Shown: positions 15,257-22,172 of the stretch, piece after piece
Position numbering within the stretch: the stretch's first letter is position 1
How the letters are laid out: the number at the start of each line of letters is the position of its first letter
DNA from: a bacterium
Lineage (GTDB): Bacteria > UBP6 > UBA1177 > JAKLFG01
Assembly: GCA_022709425.1 (NCBI GenBank)
Contig: JAKLIW010000012.1
Coordinates: 1-64,000, forward strand
Length of the DNA stretch: 64,000 nucleotides
Direction of reading: 5' to 3'
Notes under the pieces: model-generated
The model's database searches: none
Told to the model about the DNA's origin: nothing
What the model saw: only the letters and a program-made list of their open reading frames with translations
Program-made: the position numbers and the translations under genes

Positions 15257-16243
15257 GTGTACGCCGTGCAAAAATTCGTCTGGATAACGATCTTAACAGT
15301 GCTGGTCGGCGTCATCGCGTGGCTTCTGACCGCCGGCGGCGGTTCGGCCGCGCAGATGCCGCAGAACGACGGGAAAATGGCGGTGTTCGTCTCCATCCCG
15401 CCGCTCAAATATGTCGTCGAGCGTATCGGCGGCGACCGGGTGACGGTGACGGCGCTGGTCCGTCCCGGCGCCAACCCCCACACCTTTGAACCGCTTCCCG
15501 ACCAGATGGCGGGATTATCGCAGGCGAAATTGTTCTTCCTGACCGGTGACCCCTCGGAGATCGCGTGGCTTGAAAAAGTGCGCGGTTCGTATCCCGGCGT
15601 CACCTTCGTGCGGACCGATACCGATATCGCCAAGCGTCCGGCCGACGGCCAACAGACGGAACACCGGGAACATGATTGTGCCCACCACGCGGAGGGTTTT
15701 GCCGCAGAGGATCATGCCGCCTGTCCGAACTATGCGGACCATCACGGCGGCGGCGATCCGCACATATGGCTTTCTCCCCACTTACTTAAAGAACAGGCCC
15801 GTGCGGTCGCCGCGGCCGTTGCGGCGGCCGATCCGGCGCATACTACCCGCTATCAGAACAACCTTCTTGCATTTGCCGATGAAATGGATGCGCTCGACGG
15901 CCGGATAGCGACCCTGCTGGCCTCCTTCAAGGGACGTCCCTTCATCGTGTTCCATCCCTCGTGGGGATACTTTGCCGACGCGTACGGCCTGAAACAGGTG
16001 CCCATCGAGATCGCGGGCAAGGAGTCGGGAGCGCAGCATCTGGCGGCGGTGACCGACATCGTGCGGCGGGAAAAGGTTTCCGCCCTTTTCGTCGCGCCGC
16101 AGTTCTCGGGCCGCGAGGCGCAGGCGGTCGCCGATGCGACCGGGGCAAAGGTCGTTATGATCGATCCGCTCGTCGAGGATGTGGCGAAGAATCTGTGGTC
16201 GGTCGCCGAGGCGCTCGCCGCATCGTTCGGAGGGGCGCAGTGA
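15257..16243 (+). CDS. znuA: Zinc ABC transporter substrate-binding protein
   Basis: A 328-residue cluster A-I metal-binding protein. An N-terminal hydrophobic segment (export signal or anchor) precedes VFVSIPPLKYVVERIGGDRV and RPGANPHTFEP, whose His is a metal ligand. A His/Asp-rich loop near residues 130-165 (HREHDCAHH, then DHHGGGDPHIW) is typical of zinc-specific ZnuA. Later HPSWGYFADAYGL and the conserved Asp near the C-terminus complete the site. The start is GTG; 15257 and 15266 are both possible, the latter with a better-spaced AAGGTG. It opens the znuACB operon. Confidence 0.9.
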   Translation: MYAVQKFVWITILTVLVGVIAWLLTAGGGSAAQMPQNDGKMAVFVSIPPLKYVVERIGGDRVTVTALVRPGANPHTFEPLPDQMAGLSQAKLFFLTGDPSEIAWLEKVRGSYPGVTFVRTDTDIAKRPADGQQTEHREHDCAHHAEGFAAEDHAACPNYADHHGGGDPHIWLSPHLLKEQARAVAAAVAAADPAHTTRYQNNLLAFADEMDALDGRIATLLASFKGRPFIVFHPSWGYFADAYGLKQVPIEIAGKESGAQHLAAVTDIVRREKVSALFVAPQFSGREAQAVADATGAKVVMIDPLVEDVAKNLWSVAEALAASFGGAQ

Positions 16244-16968
16244 ATATCGTCACTTTCGACAAGGTCTCCTTCGCCTACGCGGCGTGGCCGGTGCTCGAAG
16301 AGGTCTCCTTCGATATCGCCGAACGGGAGTTCTTCGCCATCATCGGGCCCAACGGCGGCGGCAAGACCACCATCCTGAAGCTCATGCTCGGCCTTCTCAA
16401 GCCGCGGCAGGGGACCATAACGGTCCTCGGTGCGGCGCCCGGAAAAAGCGTCGGCCGGATCGGTTATGTGCCGCAGTCGGCGCGGATGGAGCTTGATTTT
16501 CCCATCACGGTCGAGGAAACGGTGATGCTCGGGCGGCTCGGCCCGCGATCGCTGACCCCCTTCTTTTCGGAAAAAGATCGTATCGCGGCGCGCGCGGCGA
16601 TGACGGCGGTCGATATCCTGCCGCTGAAAGGTCGTCTTTTCGACGAACTGTCGGGCGGTCAGAAACAGCGGGTCCTCATTGCGCGGGCGCTCGTGTCGGG
16701 GCCGGAACTGCTGCTGCTCGACGAACCGGTATCGAGCGTCGACAGCGCCGTGGAGCAGGATATCTACGCGCTTCTGAAGGAACTCAACAAAAAGATGGCT
16801 ATCGTCATGGTGTCGCACGATCTCGGCTTCGTTTCGTCGTATGTCAACCGGATCGCCTGTGTCAACCGGCAGGTTTCGGTAAGCGATGCGGCCGAGGTGA
16901 CGCAGTGCGGAATAGACGAGAAGTACCATAGCCATATGCACCGCGTCGATCACCACTGCGGGTTGTAA
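16240..16968 (+). CDS. znuC: Zinc ABC transporter ATP-binding protein
   Basis: A 242-residue ABC ATPase. Walker A GPNGGGKTT at about residue 37, Q-loop YVPQSA, signature LSGGQKQR, Walker B LLLLDEP and the switch SHDLGF are all intact. It begins with GTG at 16240, overlapping the znuA stop by four bases; a longer reading from 15961 would lie inside znuA in another frame. The C-terminal tail after residue 215 has several His residues (YHSHMHRVDHH), common in metal-transporter ATPases. It powers the ZnuB channel. Confidence 0.93.
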   Translation: MNIVTFDKVSFAYAAWPVLEEVSFDIAEREFFAIIGPNGGGKTTILKLMLGLLKPRQGTITVLGAAPGKSVGRIGYVPQSARMELDFPITVEETVMLGRLGPRSLTPFFSEKDRIAARAAMTAVDILPLKGRLFDELSGGQKQRVLIARALVSGPELLLLDEPVSSVDSAVEQDIYALLKELNKKMAIVMVSHDLGFVSSYVNRIACVNRQVSVSDAAEVTQCGIDEKYHSHMHRVDHHCGL

Positions 16969-16970
16969 CG

Positions 16971-17792
16971 ATGGGCGGATTCGCAACAGCGCTGATGCAG
17001 TATCCATTCCTGCAGAACGCCCTTATCGCGGGACTGCTGGCGGCGGTCGCCTGCGGACTTGCCGGGACCTTCGTGGTGCTCAAGAAGATATCGTTCGTCA
17101 CCGGCGGCATATCGCACGCGGTGCTGGGCGGGGTCGGGGTCGCCGTGTTCCTCGGCTATTCCCCCTTCGCCGGAGCGCTTGCCTGCGCTTTGTTGTTCAC
17201 GGTGGTGCTGGGGCTGGTCAACAAGCGGGCGCGTCAGCATGAAGATACCCTCATCGGGGCGCTCTGGGCGATCGGGATGTCGGTCGGCATCCTGTTCCTT
17301 TACCTCACCCCGGGTCATCAGGCCGATCTGATGAGCTATCTGTTCGGCAGTATCCTGATGGTCCCGCGGGGGTCGCTCTACCGGCTGGCGGCGCTCGATG
17401 CGGCGGTGCTTATCACGGTGTTCATTTTTTTCCGGCAGTTCATCGCCCTCTCGTTCGATGAAGAACATGCCCGGGTGCGGGGACTTCCGCGGACGATGCT
17501 GTACATAGTTCTACTCGGGGTGGTCGCGCTGACGGTGGTGGTGCTGATGCAGGTGGTCGGCCTCATCCTCGTGATCGCGCTTCTCACGCTTCCCGCCGCG
17601 ACCGCCACCCTCTTCAGCCGGTCGCCCGTCGCGATCATCGGCTGGGCGACCCTTATCGGCGCGGTCTCGACCTTCGCCGGCATTTACGGATCGTTCACGC
17701 TCGATATCCCGGCGGGTCCCGCGATGGTGCTCGTCGCCGGCGCGCTCTATCTGGCGGGGCTCCTCCTGCGCACTTTCGGGAGGGGCGCATGA
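16971..17792 (+). CDS. znuB: Zinc ABC transporter permease
   Basis: A 273-residue polytopic membrane protein of the ABC-3 family, with about eight hydrophobic helices. Signature stretches include FVVLKKISFVTGGISHAVLG near residue 40 and GLILVIALLTLPAATA near residue 200. It begins 2 bp after znuC and overlaps the next gene by four bases (ATGA). It forms the inner-membrane channel for the zinc handed over by ZnuA. Confidence 0.92.
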   Translation: MGGFATALMQYPFLQNALIAGLLAAVACGLAGTFVVLKKISFVTGGISHAVLGGVGVAVFLGYSPFAGALACALLFTVVLGLVNKRARQHEDTLIGALWAIGMSVGILFLYLTPGHQADLMSYLFGSILMVPRGSLYRLAALDAAVLITVFIFFRQFIALSFDEEHARVRGLPRTMLYIVLLGVVALTVVVLMQVVGLILVIALLTLPAATATLFSRSPVAIIGWATLIGAVSTFAGIYGSFTLDIPAGPAMVLVAGALYLAGLLLRTFGRGA

Positions 17793-18580
17793 ACGGCGTG
17801 TCGTGGCTGGAGAAGCTCGGCGGCGCGGCGCTCGAGAACTGGCGCGAACTGCGGCAGCTGCTCGGCTTTGCGTATGCCGTCTTCCGGCGTTTGTTCTCCC
17901 GCGCCAGCTACCGGCCGCTGACGGTCGATATCCTGACCACCCAGATATATTTTACGGCGGTCCAGTTGCTCGGTTTCTTCATCGTGGTATCCATCCTTTT
18001 CGGTTCGCTTTTCATCGGCATGACCCTGTTCGTCATCAAGGAGATCGGGCTGACCGAATATATCGGCCAATTCATCGCGGGGGTCGTGGTGCTCGAGATG
18101 GCGCCGATCATGACCACCCTGCTCATCGCCCTGCGGAGCGGCTCGGCCATCAACGCCGAGATGGCGGTCATGAAGGCCAATCGCGAACTCGACGCCCTTG
18201 CGGCCTTCGATATCGACATCGCGCAGTATCTGTTCCTGCCGCGCATCATCGCGGTGATGGTGAGCGTCGTACTGCTCAGTTCTCTTTTTGCGATCATCGT
18301 GACCCTTTCCGGATTGTTGTTCTCCGCACTCATCTTCGGCATGGGCTTCAATGCCTACGCCGACATCATCGCCAAGGCGATAGAATACAAGGATTTCCTC
18401 ATCCTGATGGTGAAAAGCGCCGCGTTCGGGTTCTTTATCACCTTCATCCCGCTCTACTATGGATCGCGCGCCGGTTATCAGCTGACGGCGGTGCCGGTGG
18501 CTGTCCTGCGGGGGATGGTCAATGTCTTCATAGCGATAGTCGTCATCGAGGTGCTGTCATTAGTTGCCCGGTTTCTGTAA
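17789..18580 (+). CDS. mlaE: MlaE-family lipid ABC permease
   Basis: A 263-residue MlaE/YrbE-type permease. After an amphipathic start it has about five membrane helices. The family core is clear: GLTEYIGQFIAGVVVLEMAPIMT and ALRSGSAINAEMAVMKANRE (the R-x-G-x-A-xx-AE-x-x-x-M region), then ALAAFDIDIAQYLFLPRIIA. MlaE moves phospholipids across the inner membrane as part of MlaFEDB. The four-base overlap with znuB is odd for unrelated functions. The following genes are a degenerate ATPase and mlaD. Confidence 0.9.
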   Translation: MNGVSWLEKLGGAALENWRELRQLLGFAYAVFRRLFSRASYRPLTVDILTTQIYFTAVQLLGFFIVVSILFGSLFIGMTLFVIKEIGLTEYIGQFIAGVVVLEMAPIMTTLLIALRSGSAINAEMAVMKANRELDALAAFDIDIAQYLFLPRIIAVMVSVVLLSSLFAIIVTLSGLLFSALIFGMGFNAYADIIAKAIEYKDFLILMVKSAAFGFFITFIPLYYGSRAGYQLTAVPVAVLRGMVNVFIAIVVIEVLSLVARFL

Positions 18581-19038
18581 GACTCTTCCGCTCGGAAGAG
18601 GAACTGGCCGCGGCGCTTGCCGCGCTGCGCGCCGAGATGGGGCCGCGCTACGCCCCCGTTTCGGCCGACATCCCGCTCCTGTCCAACCTGTCGGTGTTCC
18701 AGAACATCGCCCTCATCCGGCAGTACCACCAGCGGCTGACGGCCGAGGATTCCCATCGCGACACCACGGCGCTGCTCGAACGGTTCGATATGTGTCATCT
18801 GGCGGCAAAACGGAGCTTCGAGCTGAATGACCGTGATCTATTCTTCGTGAAGTTGCTACGCGCCTCACAGCACGCGAACGCCGCCATCGTCATCGACCGT
18901 CCTTTCGCGCAGGTCGAGAATATGCATAACCTTTCGCCCATACGGAAAGCGCTGGAACTCCTTGACTTCTCCGGCATCGAAGGTATCATTCTCGGGTACG
19001 AATGGAACAGGGGGCGCTACGAGGCCGATGGCCAGTAA
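18559..19038 (+). CDS. MlaF-like ABC subunit lacking P-loop and catalytic residues
   Basis: About 159 residues aligning to the second half of an MlaF-type ABC ATPase. A Q-loop-like stretch (PLLSNLSVFQNIAL) is followed by LLERFDMCHLAAKRSFELNDRDLFFVKLLRAS, where the LSGG signature has become LNDR. AIVIDRPFAQV stands in for Walker B, keeping Asp113 but replacing the catalytic Glu with Arg114. The Walker A segment is absent, because the preceding DNA is mlaE. No ATG fits; an ATT at 18559 with GAGGTG five bases upstream is my best start, and ATG 18637 is an alternative. The position between mlaE and mlaD is where mlaF normally sits. It is probably an inactive structural partner or a decayed gene. 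Confidence 0.65.
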   Translation: MSCPVSVRLFRSEEELAAALAALRAEMGPRYAPVSADIPLLSNLSVFQNIALIRQYHQRLTAEDSHRDTTALLERFDMCHLAAKRSFELNDRDLFFVKLLRASQHANAAIVIDRPFAQVENMHNLSPIRKALELLDFSGIEGIILGYEWNRGRYEADGQ

Positions 19039-19972
19039 GAGCATACAGTATAAGGTCGGGCTCTTCATTGTCACGACCATCGTGCTCATCATACTCGCCG
19101 GGCTCTTCATCGCCTATAAAAAGGACCTGTTCGCCGATCTGGCGATGTACCGCCTCCAGTCGGAATCGGGCGAAGGGCTCACGCAGGGGATGCCGGTCCT
19201 CTTCTCCGGTTTCGAGATCGGCAAGGTGAAGGACCTCGAACTGTCGGACAAGGGACAGGTGGTCATCACCATCACCGTGCCGCGCAAACATGTCCGTTGG
19301 ATACGCGAGGAGAGCACCTTCACGCTCGAGAAACCGCTCGTCGGCACGCCGCGTATCGTGGTGCGGACCGAGAACCCCGAGGGGAAAGAACTTTCCTACA
19401 ACAAGATCGTCCCGATAAAGACCATCGACGATATCAACGAGGTCATCAAAAAGGCGCAGCCGCTGGTCGAACGGATACAGTCGGTCGCCGACAACATCGA
19501 CCGGATGACCAACGCCGACAGCGAACTCAATAAGATCATCGCCGATACCCGTAAGATGACCAAGATGCTTTCGGAGAAGAAAAGCCTGCTGGAGATGGCG
19601 ACGGGCGACAAGAAGGGGCAGGAAACGCTCATGAAGACCCTCGAACAGGTCGCCGCCATCACCGAAACGGTCGACGGCACCATGAAGCGGATCGACGGGA
19701 TGGTGGCGAAGGCCGACGAGGCGGTGCTGGGCGATAAGGGTTCGATAGCGATAGTCAACAACATCCTCACCGACATCGAAGGGAAGTTCAAGCGGCTCGA
19801 TACCCTCATCGATAACGCGATAACGATGAGCGCTGATCTACAAGGGACCACGCAGGACATCAACCTCGTCCGCAAGGAGGTCGAGGAGACGATATCGTCG
19901 GTGAACAAGCTCATTCAGGATGTCCGCAACAGTCTGCCGTTCGAGCAGAAGAAGGAGATAAAACTGCCGTGA
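19028..19972 (+). CDS. mlaD: MCE-domain protein, MlaD-like
   Basis: A 314-residue MCE protein: one N-terminal membrane helix (FIVTTIVLIILAGLFIAY), then the MCE beta barrel at about residues 35-115, including LTQGMPVLFSGFEIGKVKDL (the G-x-x-V-x-x-x-G-x-x-V-G-x-V pattern). A long helical tail to the C-terminus, rich in Asp/Lys/Met, probably forms the coiled tube seen in larger MCE proteins. It binds lipid between MlaE and the outer membrane. It overlaps the degenerate ATPase by 11 bases and the next gene by four. Confidence 0.88.
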   Translation: MASKSIQYKVGLFIVTTIVLIILAGLFIAYKKDLFADLAMYRLQSESGEGLTQGMPVLFSGFEIGKVKDLELSDKGQVVITITVPRKHVRWIREESTFTLEKPLVGTPRIVVRTENPEGKELSYNKIVPIKTIDDINEVIKKAQPLVERIQSVADNIDRMTNADSELNKIIADTRKMTKMLSEKKSLLEMATGDKKGQETLMKTLEQVAAITETVDGTMKRIDGMVAKADEAVLGDKGSIAIVNNILTDIEGKFKRLDTLIDNAITMSADLQGTTQDINLVRKEVEETISSVNKLIQDVRNSLPFEQKKEIKLP

Positions 19973-20619
19973 GACAAGCGCTCTTCAGCATCGTCATCGC
20001 GCTGGCCGCCTGTTCGTCCCAGCCCGCTCCGGCGTGGCAGAGCGCCGCCCATACGCAGCTGGCCAATTACTCGGAAAGTTATCTCGCGGGCGAAGAGAAA
20101 CTGGCGGGCATCCATTTCGATAAAGCACTTGAACATATCTCAAAGACCGGCGATCCGGCGCTCGTGGGGCGGGCATGGCTCACCCGCTGTGCGCTGGAGA
20201 CCGCCGCGCTCATCGATGTCCCCTGCGAACAGGCGAAGGAATACGGCGGCGATCCGTCGAACGACAGCTACCGTGCGATGCTCGAAGGGACCGCCGTGAA
20301 GCCGGATGCGCTTCCGGAACAGTACCGCGACCTGATGGCATCGCTTGCCAAACGTTCGGTCAAAGAGGTGAACGATGCCCTTGCCGGTATCGAGGAGCCG
20401 GTCTCGCGGCTTATCGGCGTCGGAGTAACGCTCAAAAGGGGGACCTTCGATACCGCCACGCTGGAACTCGCGGTGCAAACGGCCTCGGAGAACGGTTGGA
20501 AGACGCCGCTCACCGCCTATCTTCTGAAACTCAAAGCGCTCTATGTTGCGACCGGCCAGAGCGACAGGTCGGCCGGGATCGAAGAGCGGCTGAAGATACT
20601 TGCCGCCGACAAGAAATAA
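19969..20619 (+). CDS. Helical lipoprotein of the Mla-like operon
   Basis: A 216-residue lipoprotein (lipobox IALAACSS) starting with GTG inside the mlaD stop. The mature part is entirely helical with TPR-like periodicity (AWLTRCALETAALIDVPCEQA, later LKLKALYVATGQSDRSAGIE). I do not recognise the family. Its coupling to mlaD suggests an outer-membrane or periplasmic partner of the MCE system, in the place MlaA or an accessory lipoprotein might occupy, but it lacks MlaA motifs. Confidence 0.7.
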   Translation: MRQALFSIVIALAACSSQPAPAWQSAAHTQLANYSESYLAGEEKLAGIHFDKALEHISKTGDPALVGRAWLTRCALETAALIDVPCEQAKEYGGDPSNDSYRAMLEGTAVKPDALPEQYRDLMASLAKRSVKEVNDALAGIEEPVSRLIGVGVTLKRGTFDTATLELAVQTASENGWKTPLTAYLLKLKALYVATGQSDRSAGIEERLKILAADKK

Positions 20620-20651
20620 TATCCTTTTTACGTTTTTGGGGGAGAGGTGTG

Positions 20652-22172
20652 ATGCGCATATTTAATTGGTCGGTCATCGTTTTTTGTATCGCGCTACTTT
20701 TGTCGGCGTGCGATGAGAGCGCCAAAAAGACGAACGACAAGGACAACCTCTCCGACAGCGACGAGCTGATCGGCGACAGCGACGAGAACGCGGTAAGCGA
20801 CATGGACTTCGCGGCGACCTGCGGCAATGGTTTCATTGACGGCGGCGAGCCCTGTGACGGCAATACCGAGCTCTGCAGCACCATAGACCCGGCGCTTTAC
20901 AACGGCGGCAAGGCGAAGTGCCGCCCCGATTGCACCGGCTGGGACACGGTGACCTGCGATGAGGTGCCGCATGAGTGCGGCAACTTCATACAGGAAGGTC
21001 CCGAGGCCTGTGACGGCGACACGAAGGATTGCGTCGATATCGATGCGGAAAAATACGGCGCCGGCAAGGCGAAGTGTCTCGAGGACTGCAGTGATTACGA
21101 TACTGCCACCTGTGACGCGGCCGAACCGCATGAATGCGGCAATGCCATCGTCGAAGGTCCGGAGATCTGCGACGGCGGCCTGATCAACTGCGTCGAGATA
21201 GATCCGTTCGTCTATGCGAGCGGCAAGGCGAAATGCAACGATTCCTGCGACGGCTGGGATACGGCGACCTGCGAAGAGTTGCCCAAGGATGGCGATACGC
21301 TACCCGACACCGACGCCGTCTGTTCCAATGATTGTACGCCGCAGGGGACCGAACGGTGCGTCGTCGACACGGTCCAGCGCTGTACCCAAGGAGGGGACGG
21401 TTGCAATCACTGGCAGGATATGGAGTATTGCGATCAGTATTCCCCGGCACAGACCTGCGAATTGTCTTTCGGCGACGCCTACTGTGTCTCTTCGTGTACC
21501 AGCGAATGCACCTCGGGTGATCGCCGGTGCAATCCGACCTATGCCGATCAGGTTGACGATTGCACATTGGACAACGACGGCTGCTACTACTGGACCTATA
21601 TGGAGGATTGCGCCACGTGGGGTATGGTCTGCGTCGATCCCGGCACGGCCGGCTGCGATTATCCGTCGACCGCGCAGACCGATACCATCGGATCGAACGC
21701 ATACTACTATACCGGCGGCGACCGGTTAAAGGGGAACTATTTCTCCTGTTCTTCTTCGCGAACCTTGACCGAGATAGAGACCTATATGTCTTTTCTCGGC
21801 TCTCTTGACATCACTTACGCGGTCTATTATTCATCGAGCCAGACCGGCACCTACAGCCTCCTTTCACAGACGACGGTCAATCACTACTCGAGCGCCGGAT
21901 CCGCCGCATTTTACAGTTCGGGGGCCTTGTCGGTGAGCCTGACCAGCGGTTACTATTATTTCATAGGGGTCTTTTTCGGCGTTACCGACGATATGGTCTC
22001 ATATGACCCGACCCATTATTACGATTCTTCTCTGGAGACCGATCAGCCGGCATTCGGCACCCATCTCGGCGGTGGTGAAACGAGTCCCTCCGGAACCTTC
22101 GCCAGTCTGCCAAGTACGATCACCACTATCGATAACTCCTATTCGTACTATATGAGATTGACCAGCGAATAA
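20652..22172 (+). CDS. Large Cys-rich-repeat surface lipoprotein
   Basis: A 506-residue lipoprotein (lipobox LLLSACDE). An acidic Asp/Ser tether (SDSDELIGDSDEN) is followed by three Cys-rich repeats of about 53 residues, each starting CGNxxxxGPExCDG and ending in D-x-C-x-x-WDTxTC, close to Myxococcus-type Cys-rich repeats. Two further Cys modules with GDRRCNP and WQDMEYCDQY patterns come next. A Ser/Tyr/Thr-rich beta domain ends the protein. It should be disulfide-stabilised and exposed at the cell surface. ATG 20652 follows a GGGGGAGAGG ribosome site. Confidence 0.8.
   Translation: MRIFNWSVIVFCIALLLSACDESAKKTNDKDNLSDSDELIGDSDENAVSDMDFAATCGNGFIDGGEPCDGNTELCSTIDPALYNGGKAKCRPDCTGWDTVTCDEVPHECGNFIQEGPEACDGDTKDCVDIDAEKYGAGKAKCLEDCSDYDTATCDAAEPHECGNAIVEGPEICDGGLINCVEIDPFVYASGKAKCNDSCDGWDTATCEELPKDGDTLPDTDAVCSNDCTPQGTERCVVDTVQRCTQGGDGCNHWQDMEYCDQYSPAQTCELSFGDAYCVSSCTSECTSGDRRCNPTYADQVDDCTLDNDGCYYWTYMEDCATWGMVCVDPGTAGCDYPSTAQTDTIGSNAYYYTGGDRLKGNYFSCSSSRTLTEIETYMSFLGSLDITYAVYYSSSQTGTYSLLSQTTVNHYSSAGSAAFYSSGALSVSLTSGYYYFIGVFFGVTDDMVSYDPTHYYDSSLETDQPAFGTHLGGGETSPSGTFASLPSTITTIDNSYSYYMRLTSE

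Follow-up and report, generated by a model that had tools for sequence, protein, structure and literature searches.

A predicted catalytically inactive, shrunken ABC nucleotide-binding domain encoded between mlaE and mlaD in two bacterial phyla

Architecture of the locus

The window considered here is a stretch of bacterial DNA 64,000 nucleotides in length, and its numbering is used throughout unless another locus is named. It contains a compact unit of four genes in which a short reading frame, designated pseudoF, lies between mlaE and mlaD:

17789..18580, plus strand: mlaE, a divergent permease of type C, 263 aa (PF02405, E=1.3e-46; type-C clade)
18559..19038, plus strand: pseudoF, a mini ABC nucleotide-binding domain predicted to be catalytically dead, 159 aa (profile searches, AlphaFold, Foldseek)
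19028..19972, plus strand: mlaD, a long MCE protein with a helical extension, 314 aa (PF02470, E=1.6e-8)
19969..20619, plus strand: fourth gene of the unit, a conserved, all-helical, TPR-like lipoprotein (AlphaFold pLDDT 90, helical repeats)

The pseudoF reading frame comprises 159 codons and a stop and shares 22 nt with mlaE and 11 nt with mlaD. The first-pass annotation had placed an ATPase-like reading frame between these two genes with tight overlaps to both, and the arrangement is indeed as described. Only one copy of pseudoF is present in the entire genome (75 contigs). With both an MlaE permease (PF02405) and an MCE protein (PF02470), the unit belongs to the MCE/Mla systems, and by analogy with that family the type-C MlaE and its MCE partner would be expected to move phospholipids. 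The product of the fourth gene matched no Pfam family; the gene adjoins mlaD in both of the phyla in which pseudoF occurs.

Directly 5' of mlaE are the genes for a zinc-type ABC transporter, namely a ZnuA-like protein, an ATPase, and an ABC-3 permease (15257-17792). The stop codon of the permease gene overlaps the mlaE start (ATGA). The ATPase reading frame of this cluster (15961-16968) was considered as a possible MlaF and rejected, for it matches zinc/manganese ABC ATPases (AztA, 2.3e-50). On the 3' side of the lipoprotein gene lies that of a cysteine-rich exported protein (20649-22172) with repeated 'CGNG...EGPEACDG' units, and a similar gene also follows in the sister genome (L010).

Fold of the pseudoF protein

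When scanned alone, the pseudoF protein of the window (P0001) matched no Pfam family, and four of 11 relatives matched ABC_tran weakly. Since Pfam by itself left the window protein unassigned, it had to be pursued by profile and fold searches. A profile constructed from 11 pseudoF sequences and compared with the PDB gave LptB as the best match at E=3.6e-10 and MlaF at 5.6e-5, these E-values being derived from small alignments. The alignment to the PDB ABC ATPases begins ahead of the Q-loop and reaches the H-loop. Scanned one at a time, members of the alignment match the LptB model TIGR04406, with the window protein doing so at 4.1e-10. The AlphaFold2 model calculated from the 11 sequences has a pLDDT of 90.5 and a pTM of 0.86, and a Foldseek search with it returned LptB (E 2.9e-6), MlaF (6xgz, E 1.7e-5; 6xbd_I, TMq 0.69), FtsE, and others. 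Given significant similarity in both profile and fold, pseudoF can be assigned to the ABC nucleotide-binding domain (NBD) fold. The homology to ABC ATPases claimed initially is thus beyond chance, and the comparison of a predicted structure with MlaF, which had been proposed as a check, yielded a confident NBD fold.

The gene had been described as encoding only the second half of MlaF. This description requires correction, for in the AlphaFold model residues 1-34 form a collapsed β1-α1-β2 remnant of the catalytic core. All that is left of the P-loop is a β1-F-x-[SD]-E-α1 joint, and the antiparallel ABC-β subdomain is absent. Also absent is the C-terminal extension that wraps the other MlaF, the pseudoF chain ending shortly after the H-loop equivalent. 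Judging from the alignments and the predicted model, pseudoF is a complete but shrunken NBD from which every catalytic motif is gone. Its segments are distributed as follows:

18571..18648, plus strand: β1-α1 remnant replacing the P-loop region, residues 5-30 (AlphaFold secondary structure; family alignment without P-loop residues)
18658..18717, plus strand: coupling-groove motif VSxDxPLxSN..V..N.AL, residues 34-53 (most conserved stretch by column entropy)
18823..18837, plus strand: signature-motif equivalent LNDRD, with LSGG lost (alignment to LptB LSGGE; variable in the family)
18883..18906, plus strand: Walker-B equivalent AIVIDRPF (alignment; Arg at the catalytic Glu position)
18988..19008, plus strand: H-loop equivalent, His replaced by Tyr/Phe, followed by a nearly invariant Trp (alignment)

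The Walker A sequence, GxxGxGK[ST], is absent from pseudoF in 37/37 genomes. In the profile alignment, the Q-loop glutamine of LptB, Q85, corresponds to the variable residue 36 of pseudoF, and S139-G-G of the LptB LSGG signature corresponds to residues 90-92, which are likewise variable and belong to LNDR in the window. The catalytic glutamate, E163 of LptB, is replaced by R114, whereby DEPF becomes DRPF, and H195 of the H-loop is replaced by Y147. Among 24 non-redundant members, the catalytic Glu position is Arg in 22 and Gln in two. All three of the lesions recorded initially, in Walker A, LSGG, and DEPF, are confirmed, and the Q-loop Gln and the H-loop His can be added to them. The missing motifs suggest that pseudoF itself would not hydrolyze ATP. 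LptB, the nearest solved NBD both by sequence profile and by fold, is in contrast an active ATPase that serves LptFG. In E. coli, MlaF variants with mutated Walker A or B motifs do not complement (PMC7367683, PMC5016091), and the motifs missing from pseudoF are therefore essential in a normal Mla system. It follows that an Mla machine equipped with pseudoF alone could not work in the E. coli manner (PMC7367683).

The most conserved region of pseudoF encompasses residues 37-53, with a mean entropy of 0.88 bit versus 1.90 overall for the 24 non-redundant members. Within it, P39, L40, S42, N43, N49, and L52 are invariant. Neither the Q-loop Gln position (2.65) nor the signature (2.00) is conserved. 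The segment follows the Q-loop, and in ABC NBDs it forms the groove for the coupling helix. In MlaFEDB, the MlaE coupling helix, which is positioned between TM2 and TM3, contacts MlaF (PMC7784689). Conservation focused on the groove, as read from these sequences, is the pattern that a docking-only NBD would retain, and pseudoF probably docks on the type-C MlaE.

The start codon

Two elements at the end of mlaE define the beginning of pseudoF:

18548..18552, plus strand: Shine-Dalgarno core GAGGT, within mlaE, 6 nt 5' of the ATT (homologous loci)
18559..18561, plus strand: ATT start codon of pseudoF (ATT/ATC conservation; codon-usage test)

Of the 37 genomes, 35 have ATT as the start codon and 2 have ATC, with NTG in none. 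The codon is preceded by a Shine-Dalgarno core of the GGAGG/GAGGT type at constant spacing across the loci, a few of which show single-base variants. The ATT that had seemed unusual in the window is thus real and the only plausible start. There is no NTG in the window gene before codon 27. A canonical start farther upstream was rejected on the basis of an in-frame stop within 15 nt 5' of the ATT in 11/37 loci. An internal NTG start was also rejected, the first NTG being scattered from codon 7 to codon 115; for genus g8, GTG at codon 11 is the usual case, with no visible Shine-Dalgarno sequence.

The mlaE codons that overlap the start read xxA-TTA, and A-TTA is kept despite changes in the MlaE residue to Thr (L052), Leu (L031 and L042), or Ile (L058). 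For 20 divergent loci, each evaluated with its own codon usage, the joint probability of ATT/ATC is ~1e-36, a value that overstates the case because the loci were treated as independent; the direction is nonetheless clear. The weak ATT may persist because mlaE would have to accommodate TGN, a codon for Cys, Trp, or stop, if pseudoF began with NTG.

AUU starts are known for infC and pcnB in E. coli (PMC9410913) and for cvfC1 in staphylococci, the AUU yield in Staphylococcus reporters being ~10% of that of AUG (PMC13009471). As in pseudoF, the AUU of these genes is accompanied by a Shine-Dalgarno sequence (PMC9410913, PMC13009471), whereas the pseudoF start overlaps an upstream coding gene and its product is a transporter subunit. 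Control by IF3, common to infC and pseudoF, was considered and set aside; since infC of the window's family apparently starts with ATG, the two genes share no common start rule. In genomes of family f4 (L097-L099), infC has an apparent ATA or ATT start behind GGAGGT.

Distribution and selection

The sampling of pseudoF covers two phyla only, that of the window and the one containing Syntrophus, presumably Desulfobacterota; G033 is of the same phylum as G029 and thus adds no further one. The gene is present in 5/5 genomes of the window's family at 59-100% identity and in 21/28 genomes of its phylum (E<1e-30), the latter count leaving out one genome with only a weak match. It was found in 9/297 sampled genomes of the Syntrophus-containing phylum. 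A profile of type-C MlaE identified, with a sharp score gap, 13/395 genomes of that phylum, and a short pseudoF lies behind the type-C mlaE in 13/13 of them. Matches to the pseudoF profile at 20-37 bits were set aside as most likely ordinary ABC ATPases. Altogether, a full-length pseudoF is located behind type-C MlaE in 37 genomes from the two phyla with the same motif losses in each, and no full-length mlaF or other ATPase gene occupies the slot at the loci examined, including 0/13 Desulfobacterota genomes.

The dN/dS ratio of pseudoF, calculated for 14 pairs with the mlaE overlap excluded, is 0.11-0.25, and these codon comparisons indicate that the gene is under purifying selection. The search of relatives for a short gene between mlaE and mlaD, recommended from the first reading of the window, has thus proved fruitful.

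The window shows the order mlaE-pseudoF-mlaD, as do 8/21 pseudoF genomes of its phylum and those Desulfobacterota loci that were examined. The operon has come apart in genus g8, where mlaE-pseudoF and mlaD-lipoprotein lie at different places but both sets are kept. The cognate MlaD is found in 20/21 pseudoF genomes of the phylum, the remaining genome being 72% complete, and in 0/7 genomes of the phylum that lack pseudoF. Two MAG loci carry deletions with the ATT start retained. One is a 333-nt in-frame deletion inside pseudoF (L020:5560-5900), and the other has fused pseudoF to the end of mlaD (L021:3300-4200). On account of these loci, pseudoF may be dispensable in some populations.

MlaE types and the canonical MlaF

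Genomes of the window's phylum contain up to three types of MlaE: canonical, STAS fusion, and type C. In a tree with the canonical and STAS-fused proteins, the type-C clade has support of 100/100. Its coupling helix is kept but altered, reading N[RK]E..LExFxIDx as compared with TEQ..METMxVxP in canonical MlaE. Beside the canonical MlaE, an MlaF with intact motifs and an ATG start is encoded in most loci of the phylum examined. The genome of the window itself contains such an MlaE-MlaF pair with intact motifs (G000 C11), and the second, complete mlaF whose existence had been raised as a point to check has accordingly been located. The STAS-MlaE fusion of the same genome (343 aa; G000 contig C12, L023:6965-7996, minus strand) has no MlaF gene within 1.5 kb. 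Most genomes of the phylum carry this type, and no MlaF lies near the other copies that were checked either. In an f4 genome, two mlaE genes of different type follow one another in tandem, and no ATPase gene separates them (L089, G007 C135, 6172-7750, minus strand).

Discussion

Conservation in two phyla, purifying selection, a confident NBD fold, and strict co-occurrence all argue for the structural pseudo-ATPase that had been one of two explanations offered initially. We lean, by a modest margin, toward pseudoF being a dedicated, catalytically dead NBD subunit of a distinct MlaE-MCE lipid transporter, that is, a clamp on an MlaE-MCE bridge that would not burn ATP. Two copies of pseudoF would cap the coupling helices of the MlaE dimer and stabilize it as the base of the MlaD bridge to the outer-membrane lipoprotein, lipid movement being passive or driven by some other source of energy, a scheme proposed for MCE systems of the PqiA/LetA type. 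Because of its AUU start, pseudoF would be made in small amounts, coupled to the translation of mlaE. The stronger statement, that the ATPase has been permanently replaced by a non-catalytic NBD clamp in an ATP-independent bridge whose expression is locked to AUU across two phyla, is plausible to us at slightly less than an even chance.

The main rival is an asymmetric pair in which type-C MlaE uses pseudoF together with a canonical ATPase, whether the MlaF from elsewhere in the genome or a different ABC ATPase. The intact MlaF beside canonical MlaE in most genomes of the phylum could supply ATP hydrolysis, the AUU start would suit a sub-stoichiometric supply, and pairs of degenerate and active NBDs are common in ABC transporters. 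We nonetheless consider this arrangement unlikely. Lacking both halves of the composite ATP site, the P-loop and the signature, pseudoF would share no ATP site with an active NBD, and the coupling helix of type C is unlike that of canonical MlaE. Furthermore, a single gene encodes MlaE, which leads one to expect a homodimer whose two docking sites are identical.

Less probable still is a regulatory role, in which pseudoF would damp transport by competing against MlaF for binding to MlaE, the weak start codon setting the dose. A dead homologue with its docking surface retained and a conserved weak start would suit such a function, but pseudoF is tied to type-C MlaE, beside which no cognate MlaF is encoded, rather than to the canonical MlaEFD operon, and it stays with type-C mlaE when the operon splits. 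It is very improbable that programmed -1 frameshifting yields an MlaE-pseudoF fusion as the sole form of pseudoF, with the ATT not serving as a start. The gene is in the -1 frame of mlaE, the overlap is short, and a Shine-Dalgarno-like element can stimulate frameshifting; against this, inspection by eye revealed no conserved slippery heptamer in the overlap, the in-frame stops lie just 5' of the ATT, and ATTA is conserved at the nucleotide level with exact Shine-Dalgarno spacing. A recently decayed mlaF, the other explanation offered initially, or an assembly error might be suspected from the motif loss and short length taken alone and from the deletions at two loci, but is refuted by identical motif losses in 37/37 full-length homologues from independent assemblies, by the dN/dS values, and by the lack of a full-length mlaF in the slot at all 13 Desulfobacterota loci with this MlaE type.

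The type-C unit shares with MlaFEDB and the minimal MlaEFD systems (E. coli, Veillonella) an MlaE permease and an NBD-fold gene between mlaE and mlaD, and with minimal MlaEFD a long MlaD (PMC7784689, PMC10665443). It differs from them in having an NBD without ATP motifs, ABC-β subdomain, or C-terminal extension, a divergent MlaE clade, an AUU start, and an extra helical lipoprotein. The Mpc system of Brucella (MpcEFDA) displays the same four-gene set of permease, NBD, long MlaD, and outer-membrane lipoprotein; MpcF, however, is an MlaF homologue and an ABC ATPase (PMC12436622), and pseudoF is without the motifs. The lipoprotein of the type-C unit is made up of helical repeats throughout and matches no Pfam family. 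MCE systems that lack an ATPase do exist (PMC10897342, PMC12436622). PqiABC and LetAB form an MCE bridge with no known ATPase, and transport is thought to be passive, proton-driven, or dependent on an unidentified ATPase (PMC10897342). Unlike the type-C permease, PqiA and LetA lack an NBD-like partner, and they are not related to MlaE. A search of the literature found no description of a pseudoF-type subunit.

The AUU of pseudoF represents a rare natural non-NTG start kept over a large evolutionary distance, and gene callers would miss or misplace a gene that begins in this manner. ABC permeases are defined by their ATPase, and an MlaE lineage that keeps only the docking shell of the NBD would set the structural role of that domain apart from its energetic one. 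Such a lineage would also bear directly on the question of how lipid movement through MCE bridges is powered.
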